DNA of 24,003 nt from a virus. The stretch is from IMG/VR virus record IMGVR_UViG_3300025732_002031, positions 1-24,003 of that record. One strand, given 5' to 3'. The position numbers were made by a program, and so were the translations under genes. The notes below the pieces were generated by a model. It made no database searches and was not told the DNA's origin. It worked only from the letters and a program-made list of their open reading frames with translations. Below are positions 2,738-23,810 of this stretch, in pieces. Within the stretch, counting starts at the first letter, position 1; every line of letters begins with the position of its first letter.

Positions 2738-3322
2738 TTACCCCCTTAGTTTTAACCTTAGTTTAAAAGACTCAACGAAACTCCTGAACACATTGAATAA
2801 CCTCATAGGCTTGGCTGTGGAACCGTGGTCGGTTACTTCAACAGGAACTTCGATTATTTGTAAACCTTTCATCCGGGCCTTGTAGAGTATCTCAAGGTCG
2901 AATATGTACGAACTGCTTTCCCAAGGGAGGAGTGAGTAGTATTTGAATAGTTTAATCCCAGTCTGTGTATCATTTGTGATACCAAACAGCCATTTGATAT
3001 ATAATCTGCTACATTTAGTTAATAGCCTGCGCCCAAGTGATCCCCTAACCTGCTTCTTCCCAACCACGATGTCATAGTCCTTCAGGAAAGGCAGAAGCCT
3101 ATGTATCATCCGCGGGTGGATGTCCAAATCACCATCTATGAAGCAGATCGTGTCCCCGGTGCATTGACTTAAAGCCTCTCTTACCGCCCAACCCTTCCCC
3201 TTTCCAAGTGAGTCGTTACAGACTATGATCTGGTGTGCTTCGGGGAACTCTCTCTCAACCTCCTTGACCATTTCGTGTATCTTGGGTTCATCGCGGCTAG
3301 GGATTAGGATGGATAGTTTCAT
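2738..3322 (-). CDS. GT2 glycosyltransferase, polyprenyl-phosphate sugar synthase-like
   Basis: This 194-aa GT-A glycosyltransferase belongs to the dolichol-phosphate-mannose synthase (DPM1/GtrB-like) branch. It has the start KLSILIPSRDE, GKGWAVREAL at 42-51, the metal/nucleotide DxD as DGDLD at 63-67, and the diagnostic later motifs RGSLGRR, DTQTGIKLF and FDLEILY. These enzymes move a sugar from a nucleotide donor to a membrane polyprenyl phosphate on the cytoplasmic face. The protein lacks the C-terminal membrane helices of GtrB, and the usual DDGSxDxT loop near residue 37 is shortened to NDSLG, so it is near the minimum size for the fold. It starts within the ATGA overlap of the TMTC-like gene, which would be the natural user of its lipid-linked product (inference). 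Confidence 0.88.
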   Translation of the reverse strand: MKLSILIPSRDEPKIHEMVKEVEREFPEAHQIIVCNDSLGKGKGWAVREALSQCTGDTICFIDGDLDIHPRMIHRLLPFLKDYDIVVGKKQVRGSLGRRLLTKCSRLYIKWLFGITNDTQTGIKLFKYYSLLPWESSSYIFDLEILYKARMKGLQIIEVPVEVTDHGSTAKPMRLFNVFRSFVESFKLRLKLRG

Positions 3323-4629
3323 AAGAGGACTACGATATTACCTTTCTTCCAACCTTCGATTAACTCGTTGGCTTGTTTTTCTTGTCCGGCCGGGATGTTC
3401 TCCTCGGCTTGCTTGATAAACTGCTCTGCTTCTTTATCGTGTTTACCTAGTTTTAAAGCTGAGGCGATGTTAAATAGTATCTTAAACTCTTTCGGGCTGA
3501 TTAACCGAGCCATAGTCCACATGATAAGAGCTTCTTGATAAGATTGATTCCCCCATCTTTTCATCGCGCGGACGTGCCAGACAAACCAAGAGTTGGGAGA
3601 GGCTATACAAGATGCCTCAACAGTGTAGTAATCGTCCTGAAAAGCGTCCATCCAAAACCACATCTTAGTTGCGTACATTGTGATAAATACAGCCGACCAT
3701 ATTGGCGAAGCCAACAAAAAAGACGCTAAGGCTACCATCAATCCGGCGTTTGGAAGGTAGCAATATCTCTCAGCAATCTCCTGCTGTAACCTAAACAGAT
3801 TACAGAAAGGAGCCAGAGTGATAAGCCACCACAAAAGTCCGAATGAAGCCATAGTCCAAGGTTGTGTAGTCCAATACCAGATCATCCACCCGAAGATCAC
3901 AAGACCTAACCAAAAGAATCTGTCTCTAAGTGAATAGGCTTTTTCTTTTCCCGCGCCGGCCATACTCTGCATATACGAGTGATAAAAGGTCGTCTTGATC
4001 GGGATGATCGAGTGGATGAAGTAGAACGAAGCGGTCTTAATAAAGAGGATAAGTTTTGATATGTGAATCTTCCTGTCCTCGGTATACATCTCCTGGCTGA
4101 TTTTGTTCTGTACATTATTTTTAAATCTTTTCCAATAAAACCCCCAAATGAGAGGCATAAACAGAAGGAACCAGGAATAGTCTGATCCTAGGAATACAAG
4201 CGGAGCCAGGAACCCGGCGTTTGAGTAACAGGCTAGCAAGATCCAAGCCGGAGCCAGCAAAGGCATACTCATCGCCCCCACCATTCCTAATGTGGACAAA
4301 ACGTACCCTCTCCCTGAAATCCAAACCGAACCTTGATTGTTGATAGGATTGAAAGAGAAAAGTAAGGCAGCTAGAAAAGACACGTCGTTAGCCCCGAATC
4401 CTATATAAATAAAAGCACAAACTAAGGAGTGTAAAACTATGGTGATGGCGTGATCAATTACAGGATTGCTTTTTAAATGGCCTTCTAGGACTAGAAGCCA
4501 ATACTTCCACTTAGGGTGAGTTTCTTTGCGGTTTGCGGAAGGAATGTCGTCTGATACGTATTTAAATCCGAGACATTTTAAGTAGAAACATAAGTTTACT
4601 AACAGGATGATACAGACTTTTTCAAACAA
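3319..4629 (-). CDS. TMTC-like membrane GT-C glycosyltransferase with TPR tail
   Basis: This 436-aa polytopic membrane protein carries the hallmarks of the TMTC / bacterial O-glycosyltransferase-like family. They are an early Asp pair after TM1 (YVSDD, 24-28), a helix pattern NPVIDHAITIVLHSL, the block FNPINNQGSVWISGRG at 93-108, and late TLAPFCNLF...ERYCYLP (271-293). These are followed by a helical tetratricopeptide-like tail (about 340-415). The family transfers a sugar from a polyprenyl-phosphate donor to protein or glycan outside the membrane. The start is TTG at 4629, because the frame holds no usable ATG before TM1. It overlaps the radical SAM gene by 31 bases. The adjacent downstream gene encodes the lipid-sugar synthase, which supports a two-step pathway. 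The acceptor is unknown. Confidence 0.85.
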   Translation of the reverse strand: MFEKVCIILLVNLCFYLKCLGFKYVSDDIPSANRKETHPKWKYWLLVLEGHLKSNPVIDHAITIVLHSLVCAFIYIGFGANDVSFLAALLFSFNPINNQGSVWISGRGYVLSTLGMVGAMSMPLLAPAWILLACYSNAGFLAPLVFLGSDYSWFLLFMPLIWGFYWKRFKNNVQNKISQEMYTEDRKIHISKLILFIKTASFYFIHSIIPIKTTFYHSYMQSMAGAGKEKAYSLRDRFFWLGLVIFGWMIWYWTTQPWTMASFGLLWWLITLAPFCNLFRLQQEIAERYCYLPNAGLMVALASFLLASPIWSAVFITMYATKMWFWMDAFQDDYYTVEASCIASPNSWFVWHVRAMKRWGNQSYQEALIMWTMARLISPKEFKILFNIASALKLGKHDKEAEQFIKQAEENIPAGQEKQANELIEGWKKGNIVVLL

Positions 4630-5651
4630 AACTTTCTCACTTTCTCCTCCAGTACTAGCCTACCCCCGCGAAGAAGGTAGGTAAAATCTTCCCATCGTTT
4701 AATGTCTTTTACTTTATGAAACCAAAACTCAGGACTTCTGTATGCGTCGAAAAACCTAGGAACGTACTTATGGCCTGGGGAATTTGGATCTGGCTGTGTC
4801 CTGGGTGGGGAATATACGCTTGCCTGCGCTGTTTTGAGATACCCTTTTTTAAGAAGGTAGTGGCAAAGCTCTATCGTGTTCTTTTCTTCTTCCGGCGTCT
4901 CCCAAGGGTAGCCACACATGAAGGTTCCGTGAGGATCCAGTCCTGCATCTGACATCGCCTTTATGTTCTCAATAACTTTATCTGCTCGTTGCCCTTTCTG
5001 AATCTTGTTAATAGTATTTTGATTGGCAGATTCAATGCCTACCAATATGAACCTAAATCCAGCTTCTCTCATTAATTTGAAATCCTGTTTAATCGGTTTA
5101 AGATTACACCCCAATACAATCTTTTTATTTAGTCCGGTATCTATCATTTTTCTGCATAATTCATTCAACCACTCATTTATCGGTATTGTTCCAGCATCAT
5201 CAAACAACTCCTTATGCCCTAACTTAACGCAATCTTCAATCTCAGTTAAAACATGATCTACTGTCCTAAGCCCTCGTTTCTCATTTTCAATGATCCTCAA
5301 AGAATCCACACAAAAGGTACACCCCTTTGCCCCGGCCCACCAGCAAAGGTTAGAGGATAAAAGATGACTACCTGGAAAATATTTATAATTTCCATAAGAA
5401 AGATATTTAGGATTCATTGAATTAGTAAATTTCCTGTCAGGTATCGGCAGTTTATCAAAATCAACATCTATCTCTCGATCAGATTTAATAATCCTATCAA
5501 ACTTACCATCATCTTCACCAAACCAAACAACTTCATTCCCTTTATCTCTAAGGAGCGTCGCAAACATCGCAAGATGAGCCGGATAAATCCAAACCGGCTT
5601 CTCATATTGACGCTGAGAATGATAAGGGCTGTCTTTAAATAATATTCTCAT
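4599..5651 (-). CDS. radical SAM protein, Cx7CxxC type
   Basis: This 350-aa radical SAM enzyme binds its [4Fe-4S] cluster through C103, C111 and C114 in CWWAGAKGCTFC. That spacing (Cx7CxxC with two Trp) is known from RiPP-maturation-like radical SAM proteins, not the common Cx3CxxC. Barrel motifs follow: FDDAGT, ILVGIESANQ and GTFMCGYPWETPEEE. The N-terminal 70 residues resemble the remains of a B12-binding Rossmann domain (YPAHLAMFATLLRDKGNEVVWF) but lack the DxHxxG cobalamin motif. The ATG overlaps the HNH stop by ATGA. The 5' half is visibly richer in A/T than the 3' half. It is placed among glycan genes, so modification of a sugar, lipid or peptide is possible, but the substrate is unknown. 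Confidence 0.9.
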   Translation of the reverse strand: MRILFKDSPYHSQRQYEKPVWIYPAHLAMFATLLRDKGNEVVWFGEDDGKFDRIIKSDREIDVDFDKLPIPDRKFTNSMNPKYLSYGNYKYFPGSHLLSSNLCWWAGAKGCTFCVDSLRIIENEKRGLRTVDHVLTEIEDCVKLGHKELFDDAGTIPINEWLNELCRKMIDTGLNKKIVLGCNLKPIKQDFKLMREAGFRFILVGIESANQNTINKIQKGQRADKVIENIKAMSDAGLDPHGTFMCGYPWETPEEEKNTIELCHYLLKKGYLKTAQASVYSPPRTQPDPNSPGHKYVPRFFDAYRSPEFWFHKVKDIKRWEDFTYLLRGGRLVLEEKVRKFCLKKSVSSC

Positions 5652-6112
5652 AATTTATGAACTTTCTTATGGCACGAATGACACAAAGTAACTCCATTAT
5701 TAATATCCCAAAGCAAAGAACAAGAAATCGCTTTAGCAATAGTATCAATCCCTTCATCAACTAAAATCCTTTTCATTCTTACAACATGATGTGCATTTAA
5801 TACTTTTCCAGACTCCAAACACATCTGACAAACAAACCTGTCTCTGCGAAATACTTTTAAACGCCATTCGGAATACTCAACCAAATCCCTAATTCGAGTA
5901 GCGATGCGTTGAAGATAAACACCATTAATCTTCTTCGCCCAACCCTTTTGCCTAACACTTGGATTTCTATATTTCTTTAACTTTGAACACGGCTTACATC
6001 TAGAAGATGTTTCATGGCAAACATCCCCACAATCTAAACATTTATTATTATATCTACGTTTGTTCCTTAATCTAAAATATTCTCTTTGTACTTCTTTATC
6101 TTTATATGGCAT
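5648..6112 (-). CDS. HNH endonuclease with N-terminal zinc finger
   Basis: This 154-aa protein has an N-terminal Cys cluster (C25, C28, C39, C42) that probably forms a zinc finger. The HNH nuclease domain has C95/C98, the catalytic HH at 108-109, N138/N139 and the second zinc pair C144/C147 with H148 and H152. It is a typical free-standing phage HNH endonuclease, able to nick or cut DNA and often mobile by homing. The gene is clearly more A/T-rich than its neighbours, which suggests recent acquisition. It nevertheless sits in phase with the operon: it starts immediately after the 84-aa gene's stop and ends in the ATGA of the radical SAM start. Confidence 0.92.
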   Translation of the reverse strand: MPYKDKEVQREYFRLRNKRRYNNKCLDCGDVCHETSSRCKPCSKLKKYRNPSVRQKGWAKKINGVYLQRIATRIRDLVEYSEWRLKVFRRDRFVCQMCLESGKVLNAHHVVRMKRILVDEGIDTIAKAISCSLLWDINNGVTLCHSCHKKVHKL

Positions 6113-6367
6113 CTATTGAACCACCTCCCTCGGAACTTCCTCCGGCCACTTCCACCCTTTAGGACACCTTAGAATGACATCGTGTCCTTCTTCCATTAGT
6201 TTGAATATCTCTGCCATCTTTTCTTTCGCCGCCCTCTCTGATACCCCGTAAGTGTCGGTAAGAATAAAAAAATATTCAGCGATTATCTTTGCCCTATCAG
6301 GGAAGTTTTTTTCGAATATCTTCCTCCACTGCTTTTCAGGGATGGTGACTGATAACTCGTATCTCAT
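6113..6367 (-). CDS. hypothetical protein, 84 aa
   Basis: I do not recognise this protein. It is a mostly helical, soluble protein with a Trp-rich end (CPKGWKWPEEVP). Its ATG is in an ATGA overlap with the 48-aa gene upstream, and its stop directly abuts the HNH start, so it is a real member of the leftward operon. It has no membrane segment or cofactor motif. Confidence 0.7.
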   Translation of the reverse strand: MRYELSVTIPEKQWRKIFEKNFPDRAKIIAEYFFILTDTYGVSERAAKEKMAEIFKLMEEGHDVILRCPKGWKWPEEVPREVVQ

Positions 6368-6510
6368 ACTAACTTCTTTCTTCTTCCCCGGCGCGCGCCG
6401 TTATACAAAACGTCCTTATAGTCTATTTCCTCTCGTGTTTCCCTAGCCCATCGGAAATGCTTAGCGTAATGCTTAGCTATTCTCTTAGCTTCTTTCATTA
6501 GACTTTTCAT
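6364..6510 (-). CDS. small basic protein, 48 aa
   Basis: This short gene fills what would otherwise be a 140-base gap. The product starts MKSLMKEAKRIAKHYAKHF and ends in the basic run GARRGRRKKLV, giving a strongly positive helical protein that could bind nucleic acid or acidic phospholipid. Support comes from coupling at both ends: its ATG overlaps the dehydratase stop as ATGA, and its stop overlaps the ATG of the 84-aa gene as ATGA. No family is recognised. Confidence 0.7.
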   Translation of the reverse strand: MKSLMKEAKRIAKHYAKHFRWARETREEIDYKDVLYNGARRGRRKKLV

Positions 6511-7514
6511 TCTAGCCACTCCTTATTGTTTAACGTCCACTTGACCATCTTCTCAAGCGACGAATGAAGGTTAACGGGGAATTTATAACCATAAGACTCT
6601 AACTTTTTACCACACAGCCCATAGTGAGGATCATGCCCCGGACGGCTTGAGTGTGCGTCAACAAGCTCGTAATCTAAATCTTTTCCCATAACATCGGCGA
6701 TCATCTTTGCGATTTCTAAATTGGAGATTTGTTTCTCCCCTACAATGTTAAATCTCTCCGGCCTGTCTACCTCCGGGAACTTCTTAACATCGACATTCTT
6801 TAATATAAAAAGAATCGCATCTGACGTATTCCGGGCGTGTAACCAAAATCTTGACCCCGGCTCCCCGCTTTTAGGATCGGCGTGGACTTGCACCTTCTCA
6901 CCATTTAAAATCTTCTTAATAACCATTGGAACATACTTCTCGCTTGACTGATATTCCCCGGCGGTGTTCATAATGTTAGTAATCATTACCGGAACCCCGT
7001 AAGTCCTCCAATAGCTTATAGCGATAGCTTCTTGACAAGCCTTGCTTGCTGAATACGGGTTAGAAGGAAGAATAGCACTCCATTCTGGATGAGTATATTT
7101 TCCATCAGTAGCACCATAAACCTCGTCGGTGGAGATTTGAACAAACTTCTCCGGGTTTATTTCCCGCGCGTACTCAAGCATATTCAAAGCAATATCTACG
7201 TTATTCTTAACAAAAGGAACTGGGTTTGTGATCGACCTGTCAACGTGGGATTCTGAGGCGAAATTAATTATATAATCCACCTTCCCAATCTTGCTTTTTA
7301 ATACGCTAGATATGGGAGCAATCAAGTCGTGTGTGTAAATATTGACTCTCTTGATGTGTTTTAAGAAGTGTTCGTTGTGAGTTAATCTCTCCGAAATTCC
7401 TTTATGCCGCCAACTATCTATCCCAACGATCTCCCAATCTGTGTTGACTAATAAATGTGATAAACAATGTGAACCTATGAAGCCCCCGATACCAGTTATT
7501 AAACAACGTTTCAT
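6507..7514 (-). CDS. nucleotide-sugar 4,6-dehydratase (extended SDR)
   Basis: This 335-aa protein is of the extended short-chain dehydrogenase family. The NAD-binding glycine motif is TGIGGFIGSH (7-16). The signature FASESHVDRSI near 85-95 is the one seen in dTDP-glucose 4,6-dehydratase (RmlB). The catalytic STDEVYG gives T129-D130-E131, and the YxxxK pair is Y154/K158 in YSASKAC. The Asp-Glu pair after the Thr marks 4,6-dehydratases rather than 4-epimerases. The product would be an NDP-4-keto-6-deoxy-sugar, the precursor of 6-deoxy sugars. The sugar and nucleotide cannot be read from the sequence. No downstream epimerase or reductase is visible here, so host enzymes may finish the sugar. A GAGGGGAA ribosome site precedes the ATG. 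Confidence 0.92.
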   Translation of the reverse strand: MKRCLITGIGGFIGSHCLSHLLVNTDWEIVGIDSWRHKGISERLTHNEHFLKHIKRVNIYTHDLIAPISSVLKSKIGKVDYIINFASESHVDRSITNPVPFVKNNVDIALNMLEYAREINPEKFVQISTDEVYGATDGKYTHPEWSAILPSNPYSASKACQEAIAISYWRTYGVPVMITNIMNTAGEYQSSEKYVPMVIKKILNGEKVQVHADPKSGEPGSRFWLHARNTSDAILFILKNVDVKKFPEVDRPERFNIVGEKQISNLEIAKMIADVMGKDLDYELVDAHSSRPGHDPHYGLCGKKLESYGYKFPVNLHSSLEKMVKWTLNNKEWLE

Positions 7515-8392
7515 TTTTCCCCTCTCATGATGATTTTGACCAAGTTGCGGTTTATTCTGTGCCTGTAAAATGATGTTAAATGTCTTAATATAAAACTAGG
7601 TACTAACAAAGCCACTAGAGCATACAACCAAAAGTTTATAATTTTTAATACGTCTGGATCGTGCTTAACTGTCAGCCTTATCTCTTGCCAAAGTAAATGA
7701 GGAGCGCGGTTTTTTAGTTGGATGAAACCTTCGTTGAACCTTAAAGGTTGCCCTAAAAGCTCAAGCCAATTCATAAAAGGTGACTCTGTGTAATAAGACT
7801 TCTTTGTTCCGGTGTTTCCTCCTGGGTGGAACCTTGCCGCCACCACGTCCCACTTGAACATTGACCACCGCCACATTTTTAGGTATTGAGATACGATGTA
7901 AGGCATTTCTACAAAGATTTTGTTTGTACCTTCCACTTCCATCTTGCGGAAAGCCATCCCCGAAGGACAGCAGGACTGAGTTAAGATATTCTCATCGCGA
8001 CTCACTCCGATAGCTCCGGGATAGCCGTCGCGGAAGAAGTAAAAGTATCTACCGAGTACACCTATATCAGAGTCACCTGTATCAAACTGATGCACCACGT
8101 CCCCGGCGAAGCGTTTGTCTGTGAAAACATCGTCAGCGCAGAGATAGATTACATACTTGCCTTGAGCTTCTTTCATCAACTTGGCGAGGGTAAGACCTAT
8201 TCCCTCATTCTTCTCGTTGAGTATCAGTCGGACATCGTACAACCTTGCCACCTGTGCAGTAGCGTCTGTTGATCCGTCGTCTATGACCAGAACCTCTTTG
8301 TCTGGATAATTTTGTTCTAGCGCGGACTCTATGCTTTCGGCGAGAGTACGCTCGGAGTTATAGGCTGGTATGCAGATGGTTAGTTTTGGCAT
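7511..8392 (-). CDS. GT2 glycosyltransferase with C-terminal membrane anchor
   Basis: This 293-aa GT-A enzyme starts LTICIPAYNSERTLAESIES and has the nucleotide-binding DDGSTD at 38-43 and a CADD metal motif at 86-88. It has the acceptor-side segment PSGMAFRKMEV, and a hydrophobic C-terminal stretch (about 256-274) that would tether it to the inner face of the membrane. It transfers a sugar from an NDP donor, but specificity cannot be predicted. Its middle and C-terminal parts match the adjacent upstream GT (8380-9306) in order and motif, so the two look like tandem paralogues. It overlaps both neighbours, by 13 bases upstream and by ATGA with the dehydratase. Confidence 0.92.
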   Translation of the reverse strand: MPKLTICIPAYNSERTLAESIESALEQNYPDKEVLVIDDGSTDATAQVARLYDVRLILNEKNEGIGLTLAKLMKEAQGKYVIYLCADDVFTDKRFAGDVVHQFDTGDSDIGVLGRYFYFFRDGYPGAIGVSRDENILTQSCCPSGMAFRKMEVEGTNKIFVEMPYIVSQYLKMWRWSMFKWDVVAARFHPGGNTGTKKSYYTESPFMNWLELLGQPLRFNEGFIQLKNRAPHLLWQEIRLTVKHDPDVLKIINFWLYALVALLVPSFILRHLTSFYRHRINRNLVKIIMRGEK

Positions 8393-9306
8393 TTTCTTTT
8401 CACTTCTCTAGTCGTCCATCGGCCCCACGTCTTGCGGTAAATATCGGGGATATTCCTTAATATCCTTCGCGGTGTTAAAATGGCGAGTAAAGCAAAAAAT
8501 ATAAAAGCCGGATTGATTAAGTTTAAAGGACGTAAGCGGATAAAATTCCACACCTCTTTTAAAACCGCTTCCATCGTGAAGTAGTTTTTTATTTGTAAAA
8601 TGGATGTGTAGTCTTTGAGTAAGGCATACCCTCCAACCTTAGACCATTCCTCTACCGGCGAAGAAGTCCATCTCTTTAGGTAGTAATCTTTACTGCGGGA
8701 AATGCTCTGGTGTATACGAACAGCCACGGTGTCGTATCTTAGAATATCGTAACCCCATTCCAAGCAAACCTCGCTTACCAAACTAGAAACTTCCACAAAC
8801 ATACGATTGGTTAATTCTTTCCCATAGATTGCTTCCCGGCGAAACGCTAGACCCGAAGGGTTATTAGCAAGCTCCATAACATCATCCCCTCTCCACGCTC
8901 TTACCGGACGCTTATCCCCGTCGATAAACTGATGGTAGTATCTTGATATATGCCCCAAAGAAGGAACGTGATTAAATAAATCAACAATGTCTTGGATTAC
9001 GTTTCGGTCTAAAAAGTAGTCGTCCGCGCAGAGGAGAATAATAATCTCCCCCTTCGCATAGCTGATCGCCTTGTTGAATGACCCCCCTGTTCCTGATGGA
9101 GTTTCGCTTCGGTAATATTTAAACTTTGGCTCTTTCTCCCCATACCAAGTTAGGTTCTTATACTTCGGCGTTTCGTCTGTGGAAGCATCGTCTAAGAAAA
9201 TTACTTCTACGTTCTGATACGTCTGTAACAATGATGTGGTGATTGCGTCTATCGCAAATTGAGACTGATTGAAACACGGAATACACACGGAAACTAGCGG
9301 TTGCAT
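8380..9306 (-). CDS. GT2 glycosyltransferase, paralogue of its neighbour
   Basis: This 308-aa GT-A enzyme begins MQPLVSVCIPCFNQSQ and has DDASTD at 39-44, CADD at 93-96, then NPSGLAFRREAI and a FVEVSSLVSEV segment parallel to those of the 7511-8392 protein. A C-terminal hydrophobic stretch (NPAFIFFALLAIL) may anchor it. The frame is open for another 40 codons upstream to an ATG at 9426, but those residues do not belong to the fold. They lie inside the preceding gene, whereas the ATG at 9306 starts the canonical N-terminal strand and has a GGGGGA ribosome site about ten bases away. I therefore use 9306. It overlaps the preceding GT gene by 13 bases. Confidence 0.9.
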   Translation of the reverse strand: MQPLVSVCIPCFNQSQFAIDAITTSLLQTYQNVEVIFLDDASTDETPKYKNLTWYGEKEPKFKYYRSETPSGTGGSFNKAISYAKGEIIILLCADDYFLDRNVIQDIVDLFNHVPSLGHISRYYHQFIDGDKRPVRAWRGDDVMELANNPSGLAFRREAIYGKELTNRMFVEVSSLVSEVCLEWGYDILRYDTVAVRIHQSISRSKDYYLKRWTSSPVEEWSKVGGYALLKDYTSILQIKNYFTMEAVLKEVWNFIRLRPLNLINPAFIFFALLAILTPRRILRNIPDIYRKTWGRWTTREVKRKCQN

Positions 9307-10001
9307 ATATAAATGATCCCCCTTAAAAAGATAATCCCCATCACACACGCGAATAGGATAGGATGTTGTAAAATTTTTCTCCACTTTCCCTTTTCCAAGA
9401 ACACTCCAAAACACCGCCACTTCCAATCTAAAATCTTGTCTGTCGGGTTTCTCTGCACATACCTTTTCATACTCTTAGAGTAGTAGGCCTTTTTACGGAA
9501 GTATTCAATGAAACCTATGTCGTCGTGGTGATATAAAGGATAACTTGAAGTTACTCTTGGCCCTAAAATCCTATTACCCCAATCCGAATCCTCGGGGCCT
9601 CGAAGATTAGTATCAAACTTGGGGCATAACCTTTTCTTAACGAACCTCGGCACGTCCACCGCTGTACCTGTATAGAACTCCCTCTCATACGCCCGAACTT
9701 TCCCGAAGAAACTCTTGGCGACAATAATCTCAGGTATATAAACCGAACCATAACCCATCTGACAAAGAGAAACACATTCCTCGATTAACTTGGGATGAAC
9801 GCTCTGGTCGGAGTCTAGGATTAAAAACAATTCCCCTTTTGCTTCGGCGATCCCCATGTTCCTCTGTTCGCTTCTTTCATACCCGCGGTCGATTACCAAA
9901 AGCTCCACGTCCTTATATGTGGAGTTTCTAATTGACTCCACTAAGGTCGTTATGATTCTTCCGTGATTAGGTACGATTACGCTAACAAGCATTGAACCCA
10001 T
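9294..10001 (-). CDS. GT2 glycosyltransferase, short form
   Basis: This 235-aa GT-A enzyme starts LVSVIVPNHGR, with DRGYERS in place of the usual DDGS loop, then RNMGIAEAKGE and the DxD motif as ILDSDQS (D63, D65). The catalytic-base region is GPEDSDWGNRIL (about 135-146). A hydrophobic C-terminus (LFACVMGIIFLRG) suggests membrane attachment. The changed DDGS loop sets it apart from the other three GTs. Two ATGs, at 10001 and at codon 4, are both possible. The gene overlaps the mutase-like flavoprotein by 20 bases, and neither start has a strong ribosome site, so translational coupling is likely. Confidence 0.88.
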   Translation of the reverse strand: MGSMLVSVIVPNHGRIITTLVESIRNSTYKDVELLVIDRGYERSEQRNMGIAEAKGELFLILDSDQSVHPKLIEECVSLCQMGYGSVYIPEIIVAKSFFGKVRAYEREFYTGTAVDVPRFVKKRLCPKFDTNLRGPEDSDWGNRILGPRVTSSYPLYHHDDIGFIEYFRKKAYYSKSMKRYVQRNPTDKILDWKWRCFGVFLEKGKWRKILQHPILFACVMGIIFLRGIIYICNR

Positions 10002-11106
10002 CCATTATTGATTCGGACATTCCCTGAAATTTCCATTTACCATATCTCCCTGTCGAGATAACTCCCTGCGTAGCCAAAGACTGCAGATAAACTTCTCTCT
10101 CCTCCGGCGTTCTGTTCCAAGTGTACGCGCAACGAACCCAGGTCGGGTCTACCACTCTAACCTCATCAATAAATCTCCAAGACTGTAACTCGGAAACAAC
10201 CTCTGCACACATAGAGTCAATGGGGAGATCGGCATACTCTAAATTCCTAATTGCTATCTCTGCGGACACAGAAACCATCCCTTCTGGAGCTTTCTTCTTA
10301 TTGACGTTCGTGTAAAACCCTAATCGGTAAAAACCTGATTGAGAAAAAGGAACGTATAACCAATGTTCATCCGGGTAATTAACCCCTCTTTCCGCGCCGA
10401 TGTTGATAACCAAAACCGAGGAATAGGGTAATTCATACTTATTCTGCCCGCATAGCTTGAGCAACTGATCGAGTGGGATAGTGGAGATCAGCTTGTCGTA
10501 CTTAACCACTTCCCCATCGGCAAAGACTACCATCTTTTCATCTAGGGCGACCTTAATCGCTCGCTTCTTATAATTAATCATGCACTTCTCAGCCATCTTA
10601 TTAACCAACTCGGTTAAACCATTCACTGGATCGTGGAATCTTGAAACAAAACCTACCCCACCGGCCGGGGGAGTCTTATAAGAGTCAAACTGAACGATAC
10701 TGTCGTACAAGCCTGCTGTGTATCTCTCGTTGAAAGGATAGAAAAACATATTACATTCAGCTTGACTAAACTTCTTTGAGAGCCAGTCTTTAAAGTACCC
10801 AGGAGTGGAAACCGACTCTTTCTGCGTGAAGGTCTGGATAGGGTAAGGGAAGATTTTGTTATAGTAAATTCCCGCCTTTCGATCGTAAGAATTAAGCTCG
10901 ACCAACCCCCGGATAAACTCCATCGCTTTCTGAGTCTTTTCATTCTCAAATATCCAATGCCCCCCGCCTGTTGAAAAGTCGAACCCGTATTTCTTATAAG
11001 ACCGGCAAATCCCCCCGGCGTGTTCTGTGGCCTCGTAGATAGGGATGTCTGTTCCGTAACCTGCCGCCAACCCTGTAAAACCTGCTCCTAGAATAATAGT
11101 TTTCAT
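9982..11106 (-). CDS. FAD-dependent UDP-galactopyranose mutase-like protein
   Basis: This 374-aa flavoprotein has the dinucleotide-binding loop ILGAGFTGLAAG at 5-16, the ribose-binding acidic residue and second glycine motif in EATEHAGGICRS, and FSTGGGHWIF near 50. A FPYPIQ segment and the C-terminal GRYGKWKFQGM are both seen in UDP-galactopyranose mutases and in related amine-oxidase-like proteins of polysaccharide loci. A true mutase converts UDP-galactopyranose to UDP-galactofuranose using reduced FAD. Overall similarity is to the broader mutase / protoporphyrinogen-oxidase-like group, so the reaction is not certain. It is the first gene of the glycan cassette. It begins right after the phosphoesterase stop, and the last codons of that gene supply its GGAG ribosome site. 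Confidence 0.85.
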   Translation of the reverse strand: MKTIILGAGFTGLAAGYGTDIPIYEATEHAGGICRSYKKYGFDFSTGGGHWIFENEKTQKAMEFIRGLVELNSYDRKAGIYYNKIFPYPIQTFTQKESVSTPGYFKDWLSKKFSQAECNMFFYPFNERYTAGLYDSIVQFDSYKTPPAGGVGFVSRFHDPVNGLTELVNKMAEKCMINYKKRAIKVALDEKMVVFADGEVVKYDKLISTIPLDQLLKLCGQNKYELPYSSVLVINIGAERGVNYPDEHWLYVPFSQSGFYRLGFYTNVNKKKAPEGMVSVSAEIAIRNLEYADLPIDSMCAEVVSELQSWRFIDEVRVVDPTWVRCAYTWNRTPEEREVYLQSLATQGVISTGRYGKWKFQGMSESIMDGFNAC

Positions 11107-12721: not shown

Positions 12722-12951
12722 GGTTTTAAGCAGCCCATAATGCCCTTTTCGAGCCTGTCATAAAATTTCTTTTTGCTATCCGCACGAAGAAAATAATCTA
12801 AATCACCGTCATTAATAAACGCTCTAATTTCCTGTCTTACGGCATTTTTAATCAGCTTCTTCCCCTCATCGGAGCCTAAAAACCTATCGGCTTCTTCAAG
12901 GATTAACGCCCTCTGCTTCTTAATCATCAAAGCCTCTGTTAAATGGCTCAT
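12718..12951 (-). CDS. hypothetical helical protein, 77 aa
   Basis: I do not recognise this protein. It is predicted to be all-helical and highly charged (IKKQRALILEEADRFLG), with no membrane or cofactor motif. The ATG has AAGGAAGTGAGGG upstream, a good ribosome site, and the gene ends in an ATGA overlap with the 46-aa gene. A 34-base gap separates it from the 44-aa membrane protein gene upstream. Confidence 0.7.
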   Translation of the reverse strand: MSHLTEALMIKKQRALILEEADRFLGSDEGKKLIKNAVRQEIRAFINDGDLDYFLRADSKKKFYDRLEKGIMGCLKP

Positions 12952-12985
12952 CCCTCACTTCCTTTCTCGGCTATGCCGGTGGGTG

Positions 12986-13120
12986 CTACAAAAGTATCCC
13001 AATTAAAAGCCCTATTAGAAAACAGGCACACATCGCAACAATCAAGTGCCCAGAACAAAACAAATGCTTATCTGCATATTCTTTGGCGCAATCACAAACA
13101 TCATATTCCCCTAACTTCAT
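12986..13120 (-). CDS. small single-pass membrane protein, 44 aa
   Basis: The product begins MKLGEYDVCDCAKEYADK and ends with one long hydrophobic helix (HLIVAMCACFLIGLLIGILL) at the very C-terminus. The start is well supported by GAGGTGAG two bases before the ATG. The N-terminal part has a Cys-x-Cys. A tail-anchored helix with a small polar head is seen in phage holin- or antiholin-like and inner-membrane accessory peptides, but nothing specific can be claimed. It is the first gene after the structured non-coding region, whose last direct repeat runs into this ribosome site. Confidence 0.7.
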   Translation of the reverse strand: MKLGEYDVCDCAKEYADKHLFCSGHLIVAMCACFLIGLLIGILL

Positions 13121-13128
13121 CTCTCACC

Positions 13129-13143
13129 TCAATTTATTGGCTG
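13129..13143 (-). repeat. direct repeat copy A (15 bases)
   Basis: On the minus strand this reads CAGCCAATAAATTGA and is identical to copy B at 13287-13301. It stands at the 3' side of structured unit 1 and runs straight into the ribosome site of the 44-aa gene. Confidence 0.85.
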
Positions 13144-13286
13144 GGATGGTGGCTGATTAGGCTCTTATTTGTGCGTTGGACTCTAGATATCAACCTGTTG
13201 TCCTTATCCGCTAACGCCAAACTTCAACTAGCTCCCGACTGTTAAATCGGTAAGGGGCTTTCAACCCTCGGTAGCGAACCATCCCA
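13142..13286 (-). ncRNA. structured RNA-like cassette 1 (145 bases)
   Basis: The ends TGGGATGGT (13142-13150) and ACCATCCCA (13278-13286) form a perfect 9-bp closing stem. Inside are a long arm closed by GCGTT/AACGC (13173-13177 with 13213-13217), a hairpin CCGA/TCGG (13235-13238 with 13247-13250) and a hairpin AGGG/CCCT (13253-13256 with 13265-13268). The arm order resembles a cloverleaf, and one loop contains CTGTTAA as in tRNA-Asn, but arm lengths and T-loop do not fit a tRNA on either strand. Strand is assumed from the operon. No known RNA family is recognised. Confidence 0.5.
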
Positions 13287-13301
13287 TCAATTTATTGGCT
13301 G
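13287..13301 (-). repeat. direct repeat copy B (15 bases)
   Basis: This is identical to copy A at 13129-13143, 158 bases away. Part of it is the 3' arm of the unit 2 closing stem on the minus strand, so unit 1 is bracketed by the two copies, as if a segment had been duplicated. Confidence 0.85.
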
Positions 13302-13407
13302 TTGGCATTGGTATGCGACTAGGTCGGCTATTTTAAGTTAAGAACGTTACTTAACCCTCAAGTCTGTTACAGGTCACCTAACGGGACACCATATCCCACA
13401 ACAGCCA
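13296..13407 (-). ncRNA. structured RNA-like cassette 2 (112 bases)
   Basis: The closing stem is TGGCTGTTG (13296-13304) with CAACAGCCA (13399-13407), 9 bp perfect. Internal hairpins are CGAC/GTCG (13316-13319 with 13323-13326), GTTAAG/CTTAAC with a 7-base loop (13337-13342 with 13350-13355) and GGGA/TCCC (13383-13386 with 13394-13397). It is separated from unit 1 by nine bases and from unit 3 by six. No coding frame or ribosome site was found in it. Confidence 0.5.
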
Positions 13408-13413
13408 TATCAC

Positions 13414-13505
13414 TTCGGGTTAGGTATTGCTTCCCGCAATCGTCATTAGGTTTGGTGAGTAATCTCAAACTGCCAAACTTTCTTTGACACTTGAACTAAC
13501 CCGAA
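13414..13505 (-). ncRNA. structured RNA-like cassette 3 (92 bases)
   Basis: This is the most regular of the three. The closing stem is TTCGGGTTAG (13414-13423) with CTAACCCGAA (13496-13505), 10 bp perfect. Three hairpins give a true cloverleaf outline: ATTGC/GCAAT (13426-13430 with 13436-13440), GTTT..GAG/CTC-AAAC (13450-13470) and TGCCAAA/TTTGACA (13471-13477 with 13483-13489, one G-T). It lacks tRNA D- and T-loop consensus bases. The stem starts only three bases after the stop codon of the 100-aa gene. Confidence 0.55.
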
Positions 13506-13508
13506 TAT

Positions 13509-13811
13509 CTATTTCCCCAAGATTACCTTAGTTTCATTACACCATCGCCTAACTTCATCCCAAACTTCACACTTCGCTTTTCTCACGGCTTCGTCGAGTT
13601 CGGATTGGGTGTGCATAGCAATTTTTATATCACGAAAAACATCTGGCTTGACCTCCCCCTCCACAGGCTTCTCGAGTTCTTCGACAAATCTTAACAACCT
13701 TGAGCTAATAATGGCGTGTATACAATCAACCACCTCCATTGAAACAGCGAATACCTGTTTCTCGTTTTTTAATCTTTCTTTTACCGACTCCTTAGCGTGT
13801 TGTAGACTCAT
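13509..13811 (-). CDS. hypothetical helical protein, 100 aa
   Basis: I do not recognise this protein. It is helical with alternating charge and three cysteines (VDCIH, KAKCEVW, RRWCNE), with no membrane segment. The ATG overlaps the stop of the NinG-like gene as ATGA. The stop is followed three bases later by the closing stem of structured unit 3, so ribosomes finishing this gene would reach the start of that RNA structure. Confidence 0.7.
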   Translation of the reverse strand: MSLQHAKESVKERLKNEKQVFAVSMEVVDCIHAIISSRLLRFVEELEKPVEGEVKPDVFRDIKIAMHTQSELDEAVRKAKCEVWDEVRRWCNETKVILGK

Positions 13812-14158
13812 CTTATCCCCTCCAGATTTTTAAGTAACTCTTGCATTTCTTCTATCGTCCATTTCTTTATAGACCCGGCCCTATTCTTTAGCGGCGTATA
13901 GTCTGCCCCCAACCACTCCTTCACAAAGTCCCCGAATAATGTTGGGTTCTGATGCGCCCAAAAGTGACATCCAGCACACAAACAAAGCAGGTTCTTTAAA
14001 TCCCACCGCACAGCCCGATTCGCCCTTGAGAAAATGTGACAGCATTGAAGCAACGAATAAGTTGTATTCCCACACCGCAGACACGATCCCTGACTCCTGA
14101 TTATGCGCGAACACTCGCGGTCTAGCTTATGGGTTAGGCTTTTCTTAGTGGGTTTCAC
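13808..14158 (-). CDS. NinG/HNH-like phage nuclease
   Basis: This 116-aa protein has a zinc pair in SCLRCGN (C26, C29), the conserved CCHIFSRANRAVRWDLKN (H41, N56) and a second pair with His in CAGCHFWAH (C61, C64, H65, H69). The H..R...VRWD..N....C..CH layout is that of the NinG (Rap)-like branch of HNH nucleases, which cut branched DNA during phage recombination, and more broadly of HNH enzymes. The N-terminal basic helix (THKLDRECSRIIR) also fits NinG. It is flanked by ATGA overlaps on both sides. Its place beside other recombination/replication genes supports a housekeeping role rather than homing. Confidence 0.8.
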   Translation of the reverse strand: MKPTKKSLTHKLDRECSRIIRSQGSCLRCGNTTYSLLQCCHIFSRANRAVRWDLKNLLCLCAGCHFWAHQNPTLFGDFVKEWLGADYTPLKNRAGSIKKWTIEEMQELLKNLEGIR

Positions 14159-15447: not shown

Positions 15448-16109
15448 CAGTTACCTCCGTTTTTTGTCCAAACACTTCCCCCAAATTCCTTGCACTTGTC
15501 TTTCCAAGAGCAATAGGAACATTCTTTTCCTTCATAGGCGCGTGGGATAGCGTCAGGGACTTCTTGTTTTTGCCAAATATCAATCAGGATTCCTTCTTCT
15601 TTGGCGACTTCCTCGGTCCACTGCTCAAGAGGAAATCCGTACTCCTCGATACATAAGTCGTCTTTTGAGATAAAGATTAACCTTCCCCACTTCTTGCCTA
15701 GGTGCTTGGCGTAAAACATAACTTGGAGAATGTTATTTTTCTTTTTCTCATTAACGTCGTAGGAGTCTTTTTTCATGTACCAAAAGCCCTTTGAATGTTG
15801 GCTCTTAATATCACCTACATATTCCTCGGTTACGAAGTCCGCGTAGCCGCAGAAGTGTTCCGTTTCGACTTTAACCTCGACCTGTTCAGGTTTTAAAAGG
15901 TTCTGCACTAGATCGTGGAATAAGTGACCGGCTTCAAAGACTCTTAAACTTCTTTTATCCGGCGGGTTCGTTTGCGGTTCGTTCTTACGGTTCCAATACT
16001 GCGCGCGGTAACAACGCCCTAACATAGATGGGGAGTATTTACCGGAACGGACTCGGTTCGGGTCACGACGTGAAGCGATATGATTATCGACTAATTCTTG
16101 GACGGTCAT
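15447..16109 (-). CDS. Cas4/RecB-like PD-(D/E)XK nuclease with Fe-S cluster
   Basis: This 220-aa nuclease has the RecB-family motifs GHLFHDL (about 61-67), CGYADFV with D91, GDIKSQ giving the D-x-K pair D100/K102, and the helix ILQVMFYAKHL (Q129, Y133). Four cysteines, C33 in LGRCYR and C197, C200, C206 in CSYCSWKDKC, are spaced as the [4Fe-4S] ligands of Cas4/AddB-type nucleases. Such phage enzymes act as DNA exonucleases in recombination and replication. There is no CRISPR array nearby, so it is not a CRISPR Cas4. It has a perfect GGAGGT ribosome site, overlaps the upstream gene by ATGA and ends in TGATG with the zinc-ribbon gene. Confidence 0.93.
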   Translation of the reverse strand: MTVQELVDNHIASRRDPNRVRSGKYSPSMLGRCYRAQYWNRKNEPQTNPPDKRSLRVFEAGHLFHDLVQNLLKPEQVEVKVETEHFCGYADFVTEEYVGDIKSQHSKGFWYMKKDSYDVNEKKKNNILQVMFYAKHLGKKWGRLIFISKDDLCIEEYGFPLEQWTEEVAKEEGILIDIWQKQEVPDAIPRAYEGKECSYCSWKDKCKEFGGSVWTKNGGN

Positions 16110-16279
16110 TTTTTACCTCCAAGGTAGTCTTGAAACTCTCTGTCAATTTGCTTCATAATCTCATCGTGGGCTTCTCGCTGAGCATCAAAGTTATACTCAT
16201 TGACAAACTCCAACCCAGCCTTAAAACCTTCTAAAAACTCTCTTGACTTAAACTTCGTGTATTTTTCGGGGATAATCAT
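16106..16279 (-). CDS. small charged protein, 57 aa
   Basis: The product starts MIIPEKYTKFKSREFLEGF and is a soluble, mostly helical, acidic protein of unknown function. The frame is open 15 codons further upstream, but the ATG at 16279 has GGAGGT at ideal spacing and overlaps the stop of the gene before it as ATGA, so it is chosen. Its final codons (Gly-Gly-Lys-Lys) form the ribosome site of the nuclease gene. Confidence 0.7.
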   Translation of the reverse strand: MIIPEKYTKFKSREFLEGFKAGLEFVNEYNFDAQREAHDEIMKQIDREFQDYLGGKK

Positions 16280-21856: not shown

Positions 21857-23310
21857 TCTCCAGGCTCCGTTATCTCTAACCCGTTCTCTCCGCGTTTAAT
21901 CATCTTGACAGACCCGTCCTCGTCAATAAAAAGCTGCCCTTCTTCGGGGATAGTCATAATGCTTGGATTTCTGTTTACCGCGTCCTCATCTAAGACTTGC
22001 TGAACCGTTGTCGGTATCTTACTCGGATCGTAACTAGATAATAGTTTCTTAATAGCCAACGCTGAGTCCTGTTCGGTAGCGGATTTCCTCATCATCATCG
22101 CTTCTTTAATGGCAAAGATGGCGTTCTTGAAAGGAATAAGATTATTCTGTGACATATCCGCTTTCTTCCTCGCCCATTGGATATTCTCCGCTTCCCTTTT
22201 CAAGCTGTTAAGCATAGTAGCTTCTTTGGTCGAGAGAATACCGTCCTTGAAAGACTTAACGATAAGCTCCCGCCCCTTCTGCCTGTCGGTTTCGTCGTCG
22301 ATAAAGGTATCAACAAAATTTAAGTAACTTTCAGCTTTCGAGTTACTTTCTACTATCAACTCCAAGTCGGACTTAATCCTAGACTGAACCCCTTTGCGAA
22401 TATCAAGGATTTGTTTCTGGTCTAAAGCACCCACCACTCCACTCTCAGCCGCCGCTTGCTCCGCGTCTAAATCGGCTAAGGTAAGAGTTCCCTCATTGGC
22501 TTTTTGAAATATATTATTAAACCTTTCATCCTTTCCAGACTCATCAGCCCTTTTGAAAGTCTGGTTATTCTGGAATATCCGTCGCTGGCTTTCCTCAATC
22601 AAATCCAATCTCTCATCCGGCGGTAAAAAGGAATACTTCCCGTTATGCTTTTTTAACTCTTTTAAAACAACCGAATCCTTCTCCTGTGTCGCTGTGTCGG
22701 CATAAATCTCGTACTGCACCCCTGTTTTCTGAGCGTTCTTAATCATACTGTCAGCTTCTTTATAATCCAACACCCCGGCCGCTAGGTTAGCGTTAATCAA
22801 TCCCTGCATCTCTCCGTCAATCTGTTTCCTCTCTACATCCGTGACAGCATTAAGTCTTTTCTGTTGCATTATATCTAAGCTCTGAGCGATATTGATTTTA
22901 TTCGCCTGCATTTGCTTAGCCTGAAAATCTGCCCCGATCTTCATTCCTGTAACAACGTTCCCTCGCTCAAAGTCCATCCTTAACTGACCGGCGATCATTT
23001 GATTAGAAACACCTTTTAAACTCTCGACCTTTACTTTCTCCAATTCTTTAAAATACTTAGGCGAGTTATTAAAGTCCGGGTCTGCCGCGGCCCTAGACTG
23101 TATCTCTGCCGAGGCTATTTCATATTTAGTCTTAGCTTCCGTCGCTTGCATTACGTCGTTAGCATCACTCCACTTTTGGGCGATCTGCGTCACAGTATTC
23201 AAAACCTGATTCTGGTTAGCGGCGTTCTGCCCTGCCTCTTGACGGAAAGGAGCAGATTGCATTGGCTGTATATTATTGCGCGAGTTGTAAATAGGTAGAG
23301 ATGGACACAT
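21853..23310 (-). CDS. internal virion-type helical protein, 485 aa
   Basis: This protein is almost entirely helical. It has an Asn/Gln-rich N-terminus (QNAANQNQVLNTVTQIAQKW), many KA/ARA repeats typical of long helical bundles, and a short beta end (GQLFIDEDGSVKMIKRG). Length, composition and position between another virion gene and the 1234-aa protein fit the T7 gp15-like class of ejection proteins. That is an inference from synteny and fold type, not from a diagnostic motif. AAGGAG seven bases before the ATG marks the start. That site overlaps the -35 region of the opposite-strand HNH promoter, so the two genes could interfere. Confidence 0.7.
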   Translation of the reverse strand: MCPSLPIYNSRNNIQPMQSAPFRQEAGQNAANQNQVLNTVTQIAQKWSDANDVMQATEAKTKYEIASAEIQSRAAADPDFNNSPKYFKELEKVKVESLKGVSNQMIAGQLRMDFERGNVVTGMKIGADFQAKQMQANKINIAQSLDIMQQKRLNAVTDVERKQIDGEMQGLINANLAAGVLDYKEADSMIKNAQKTGVQYEIYADTATQEKDSVVLKELKKHNGKYSFLPPDERLDLIEESQRRIFQNNQTFKRADESGKDERFNNIFQKANEGTLTLADLDAEQAAAESGVVGALDQKQILDIRKGVQSRIKSDLELIVESNSKAESYLNFVDTFIDDETDRQKGRELIVKSFKDGILSTKEATMLNSLKREAENIQWARKKADMSQNNLIPFKNAIFAIKEAMMMRKSATEQDSALAIKKLLSSYDPSKIPTTVQQVLDEDAVNRNPSIMTIPEEGQLFIDEDGSVKMIKRGENGLEITEPGE

Positions 23311-23321
23311 TAAGATACTCC

Positions 23322-23350
23322 TTGATAAATGTCTGTTACCAGTCTATAAT
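23322..23350 (+). promoter_or_regulatory. sigma70-type promoter of the plus-strand HNH gene
   Basis: TTGATA (23322-23327), a 17-base spacer and a perfect TATAAT (23345-23350) give the closest match to consensus in the window. The GTG start of the HNH gene follows seven bases later, so the transcript would be leaderless. Confidence 0.78.
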
Positions 23351-23357
23351 ACAAGAT

Positions 23358-23810
23358 GTGGGGAGAAAAAATAGACCAACAATATATTATTTCTTGGCGC
23401 AATGTGAAGTAAATCCTTATGATTGCTGGAAGTGGAAAGGAACTATCAGTAGTGTTGGTTATGCTAAATTTTTTGATAAAGGCATTACAAAAGATGGACA
23501 CAGATTCTCCTATGAATATTTTGTAGGCCCGATCCAAAAGGGCTTTCACATTCACCACAAATGCGAGAATAGATGGTGTACCAATCCTGAACATTTGAAA
23601 CTTGTTTCCCCAAAAGAACATATTATCTACCATGATGGAGCAGCGGGTATAAATTACAGAAAAGAAAACTGTCATAATGGGCACCCTTTAAACGAAATAA
23701 ATTTATATGTAACACCTGATGGTCGCAGACAATGTCGAGAATGTATACGAGCCAGAACAAAGAAACACGCCATGAAATTAAAAAATAAAATGTGCATTAC
23801 TCCTTATTGA
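23358..23810 (+). CDS. HNH homing-type endonuclease
   Basis: This 150-aa protein has the phage HNH_3 layout. It has CWKWKG near 23-28, GYAKF, HRFSYE, the catalytic FHIHHKCENRWCTNPEHL (H66, H67, C69, C74, N76, H79) and a C-terminal zinc module (NCHNGHPLNE... CREC, about 105-129) that helps recognise DNA. The open frame reaches back to an ATG at 23301, but that lies upstream of the promoter and inside the start of the divergent virion gene. GTG at 23358 gives the usual family N-terminus and follows the -10 box. It is placed between two virion genes on the opposite strand and ends seven bases into the upstream gene's end, as expected for a homing insertion. Confidence 0.88.
   Translation: MGRKNRPTIYYFLAQCEVNPYDCWKWKGTISSVGYAKFFDKGITKDGHRFSYEYFVGPIQKGFHIHHKCENRWCTNPEHLKLVSPKEHIIYHDGAAGINYRKENCHNGHPLNEINLYVTPDGRRQCRECIRARTKKHAMKLKNKMCITPY

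Follow-up and report, generated by a model that had tools for sequence, protein, structure and literature searches.

Three tandem closed units in the gene-free gap of a tailed-phage fragment, a candidate cluster of small structured RNAs

To our knowledge, phage non-coding RNAs encoded outside tRNA clusters are few and mostly without a known role. In bacteriophage T4, rnaD (119 nt) and rnaC (139 nt) lie head-to-tail with a 6-nt spacer. Both have been observed as transcripts (PMC9697503), and the roles of rnaC (species 1 RNA) and rnaD (species 2 RNA) are unknown (PMC3014915, PMC9697503). GOLLD and ROOL are large structured RNAs of phages and prophages, also without known function, with folds supported by covariation and a frequent location near tRNA islands (PMC12286853). 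Structured RNAs of cyanophages include the wcaG, manA and glnA leaders (PMC9964418).

The DNA analysed here, referred to as the window, is the 24,003-base IMG/VR virus record IMGVR_UViG_3300025732_002031. It holds a gene-free region whose layout comes closest to that of the T4 pair, with tandem putative RNA units of similar size set apart by spacers of 6-9 nt. The T4 genes sit in a tRNA cluster and rnaC has a tRNA-like T arm (CCGGGTTCGAATCCCGG), whereas the present record has no tRNA and the region has neither a T arm nor similarity to rnaC or rnaD (nhmmer against 13001-13600, no match at E up to 10). GOLLD is much longer than the region, often exceeding 800 nt, and neither GOLLD nor ROOL matches it. 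The analysed phage also carries an epimerase/glycosyltransferase cluster (read from translations), a point of comparison with the wcaG, manA and glnA leaders, but none of these curated Rfam families matches the region at E up to 5.

The gene-free gap and its three closed units

The record is a fragment of a tailed phage, encoding a Terminase_3 large subunit, with nearly all genes on the - strand. Nearly all of them abut or overlap, and the sole long gene-free gap, 13121-13508, is bounded by the 100-aa gene's stop codon and the 44-aa gene's Shine-Dalgarno sequence. The features are as follows, z giving the folding energy relative to shuffled sequence for the strand in brackets.

12986..13120, - strand: 44-aa gene, hydrophobic stretch at the C-terminus of its product, next downstream on the - strand; Shine-Dalgarno GAGGTGAG
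13121..13508, - strand favoured for the putative RNA: predicted structured non-coding region, 388 nt, no gene-like ORF on either strand; z -3.9 (+), -2.5 (-)
13129..13143: 15-nt sequence TCAATTTATTGGCTG, first copy, beside unit 1
13142..13286: unit 1, 145 nt, last in - strand order, 9-bp closing stem; z -2.9 (+), -2.2 (-)
13142..13150: unit 1 closing stem, left arm TGGGATGGT
13278..13286: unit 1 closing stem, right arm ACCATCCCA
13287..13301: 15-nt sequence, second copy, overlapping the outer arm of unit 2
13296..13407: unit 2, 112 nt, cloverleaf-like in the + fold, 9-bp closing stem; z -2.1 (+), -2.3 (-)
13296..13304: unit 2 closing stem, left arm TGGCTGTTG
13399..13407: unit 2 closing stem, right arm CAACAGCCA
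13414..13505: unit 3, 92 nt, first in - strand order, 10-bp closing stem; z -5.0 (+), -3.6 (-)
13414..13423: unit 3 closing stem, left arm TTCGGGTTAG
13496..13505: unit 3 closing stem, right arm CTAACCCGAA
13509..13811, - strand: 100-aa gene with no family assigned, next upstream on the - strand, its stop codon abutting the region

Inspection of ORFs revealed no plausible gene in 13121-13508 on either strand. The sole + strand ORF lying partly over the region (12943-13245) is antisense to the 44-aa gene, the ORFs seen by eye on the - strand are all very short, at 13-23 codons, and two - strand frames searched with stops masked gave no Pfam match. Reassignment of a stop codon was considered and dropped, since the record uses the standard code, each of the three stops being used to end genes, and stops close every frame of the region. 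The 12-bp repeat CCTAACTTCATC at 13110 and 13548 could suggest an insertion with target duplication, a reading that was also dropped, as chance accounts for about one such repeat per window. The 44-aa protein belongs to no Pfam family above its cut-off, and no homologues of the neighbouring 138-aa, 100-aa and 125-aa proteins were found in annotated phages.

Elsewhere in the record, genes that by eye resemble those for glycosyltransferases, epimerases and radical-SAM proteins cluster at 2738-11106; they are probably involved in surface sugar modification and show 50-68% identity to the corresponding cluster of a related 39.8-kb contig (G016). A 169-aa ORF at 23301-23810 (+), opposing the other genes, resembles an HNH homing endonuclease by eye.

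The preliminary description of this DNA had placed three perfect closing stems of 9, 9 and 10 bp in the gap. All three are exact at the positions listed above, and the unit lengths of 145, 112 and 92 nt are right, with spacers of 9 and 6 nt. It had also described hairpins inside each unit; internal folds are indeed predicted, but the individual hairpins depend on the model and are unlike on the two strands. The number of 9-bp inverted repeats in the region is unremarkable (10 seen, 10.1 expected). An unbroken chain of three closures of at least 9 bp, with gaps up to 12 nt between them, arose in 0 of 400 and 0 of 3000 dinucleotide shuffles, and no other such chain occurs in 1.39 Mb of related phage DNA except in copies of the same locus. 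The earlier judgement that three closures in a row are hard to explain by chance is thus borne out (0/3,400 shuffles). The margin over chance is real yet not vast, because chains with 8-bp arms do arise by chance inside genes of related phages; the 8-bp-stem chains of three relatives (L105, L109 and L124) overlap genes and were judged to be of this kind. As the chain of at least 9-bp closures falls in the one long gene-free gap that this densely packed genome has, the balance tips towards a functional structured element.

The 15-nt sequence provides a further link between two of the units. In its - strand form, CAGCCAATAAATTGA, it ends units 1 and 2 each, the unit 1 copy preceding the Shine-Dalgarno sequence of the 44-aa gene, and shuffles seldom yield a repeat of this length within 500 nt. 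A role in processing or as a leader is possible. Its occurrences in 67 other viral contig stretches are mostly intragenic and look like chance. The notion of a modular set is supported only by the tandem layout and by this one sequence common to units 1 and 2; beyond it, the three units show no similarity to one another.

Known RNA families and relatives of the locus

No Rfam covariance model matches the region, either at its gathering score or in a second pass with relaxed filters and E up to 5, and this includes riboswitches, leaders, ribozymes and introns. The initial impression that no known phage RNA such as GOLLD or ROOL is present is in line with these searches.

A DNA search of INPHARED phages for the locus gave no match. 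Viral contigs were scanned with the NinG-like, 77-aa, Cas4-like, 1234-aa, 138-aa, terminase and 100-aa proteins, and the only other holders of the locus were contigs 100% identical to it. Of the 63 loci returned by the terminase scan, 60 differ from the analysed record (45-69% identity), and most of the longer contigs were fetched for comparison. No recognisable counterpart of the locus was found in these terminase relatives, including the one that has the largest number of genes in common with the record. The nearest by gene content is G016, which has in common with the record the terminase, the epimerase/glycosyltransferase cluster and a NinG homologue (53-54%); beside the latter lie ordinary genes and no counterpart of the three units. 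Covariance models built from the single sequence of each unit match the analysed record only, within 1.41 Mb of related phages. Two further contigs recovered by a terminase scan of genome contigs (59-65%), from metagenome-assembled genomes labelled Saccharibacteria and Methanoperedens and possibly either prophages or misbinned sequences, gave no match to the unit models. Gap candidates in two relatives (L105:4943-5577 and L122:3149-3479) were set aside with z of -1.5 and +1.1, not clearly better than shuffles.

A different kind of repeat is found in G016 (L091:12640-13900), where a 21-nt leader, CCCTCCTTTAACAATGCCGTT on the + strand and AACGGCATTGTTAAAGGAGGG on the coding strand, occurs six times ahead of small ORFs, five copies being identical and the sixth 90%. 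The array includes a 298-nt stretch with one 81-aa gene duplicated unchanged, and from its sequence it is read as a set of small genes with a common ribosome-binding leader.

The region had been proposed as a new phage non-coding RNA. It is non-coding on both strands, free of tRNA and Rfam matches and more stable than shuffled sequence, and its status as an RNA is that of a candidate, all other copies found being 100% identical. Judged from its sequence, it is a well-supported candidate RNA rather than a demonstrated one and, on the predicted folds, probably a cluster of small structured RNAs outside known families.

Folding, strand and possible functions

Comparison with shuffled sequence, which had been suggested as a check, places the region below shuffles on both strands. 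On the + strand, its z of -3.9 is the lowest when set against all other 388-nt windows sampled (best other -3.0), and on the - strand its z of -2.5 would rank third. Unit 3 has the strongest fold, whereas units 1 and 2 are moderate, with z about -2 to -3. In a 421-nt context, mean pair probabilities for the three closing stems are 0.92-0.97 (+) and 0.60-0.93 (-). In the context of 13000-13700, the stems of units 1 and 3 reach 0.90-0.97 and that of unit 2 seldom forms (0.12-0.21). The most negative 130-nt windows of the record, also relative to shuffles, are 15641-15770 and 16041-16170 (-), with z of -4.95 and -5.35; they lie within the Cas4-like exonuclease gene or overlap it.

The reading we tentatively prefer, at somewhat less than an even chance, is that of three autonomous closed RNA domains, most likely leftward (-), in an operon with the NinG-like, 100-aa and 44-aa genes. 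The evidence on strand is conflicting. The energies point to the + strand, whereas gene orientation, composition and predicted loops point to the - strand: the region has there the same purine-rich composition as the neighbouring genes, and its predicted unpaired bases are A-rich (33-45% A), but on the + strand those of units 1 and 3 are U-rich. Structured RNAs typically have A-rich loops. Neither strand carries a recognisable promoter ahead of the units, and transcription signals around the region do not rise above chance. On these predictions, an RNA on the - strand is modestly favoured. One or several rightward (+) RNAs of the same three-unit build, antisense to the operon, would explain the better energies of the whole region and of unit 3 on that strand. 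On that strand, however, 12900-13900 shows no sigma-70-like promoter, and the sole terminator-like site lies about 230 bases past the region, within the 100-aa gene, chance alone predicting about one. Such RNAs would also run against nearly all genes and bear U-rich, G-poor loops, and they are considered unlikely. The main rival lies on the - strand itself, where the region ends directly ahead of the Shine-Dalgarno sequence of the 44-aa gene. It could be a long structured cis-regulatory 5' leader serving this membrane-protein gene and perhaps also the small genes that follow, a reading to which we give a low though appreciable probability. With the same low weight, its folds would either shield the gene from upstream translation or mask the ribosome-binding site until a signal comes. 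In favour of this explanation, structured leaders are frequent for small hydrophobic proteins of phages or of toxin-antitoxin systems, and the Shine-Dalgarno sequence is mostly paired in a 700-nt context (unpaired probability about 0.06-0.25 at most positions). The same sequence is, however, largely open in the 421-nt context (about 0.43-0.88), three independently closed domains exceed the needs of a translation switch, no Rfam riboswitch or leader matches, and the 44-aa gene has no assigned family.

Next comes a decayed or neutral spacer, for instance what is left of small genes since lost, with three stems aligned by coincidence. This is comparably improbable, although inverted repeats are in total no more numerous than expected, the folds of units 1 and 2 surpass shuffles only moderately, the - strand ORFs are very short and a recognisable counterpart is lacking from both the nearest syntenic phage and the other terminase relatives; moreover, rare coincidences are expected from an initial scan that spanned many sequences. 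Against decay stand the absence of a three-unit chain from every shuffle, its location exactly in the one gene-free gap, a composition equal to that of the surrounding genes rather than to degraded DNA, and the lack of any protein-family trace in the two - frames searched. Degenerate or intron-bearing tRNA genes could be evoked by three tandem units, by stems each readable as a 7-bp acceptor with a GG start and a CC end followed by a purine, and by the + strand cloverleaf of unit 2. They are very improbable, as had been anticipated: ARAGORN finds no tRNA anywhere in the record, the Rfam tRNA model (RF00005) gives no match at E up to 5 while scoring the eight T4 tRNAs at 49-75 bits in the same program, and no 5-bp T arm with a 7-nt TTCRANY loop adjoins a closing stem on either strand of any unit (by eye).

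In the preferred reading of three autonomous leftward domains, each would fold independently during transcription and be locked by its 9-10 bp terminal stem. Host ribonucleases would then cut at the single-stranded spacers of 6-9 nt, their natural sites, and free, much as with T4 rnaC and rnaD, three RNAs (about 92, 112 and 145 nt) that are compact and resist nucleases; as a guess, these might regulate host or phage genes in trans. We infer the transcription, strand, cutting and stability of the units, with spacer cutting and persistence proposed by analogy with T4. This reading has to accommodate the better energies of the + strand, the modest folds of units 1 and 2, the loss of the unit 2 closure in longer context, the lack of a counterpart in G016 and of matches to the unit models, and the lack of a recognised promoter. 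A bolder form, which we regard as rather improbable, would see here a new class of phage RNA genes, in which three different closed multi-hairpin RNAs, arranged in a compact tandem without tRNAs, are cut at their spacers from one transcript and act in trans. If the region does encode RNAs, their roles could conveniently be tested on so compact a cassette of three, borne by a phage estimated at about 40 kb from related contigs.
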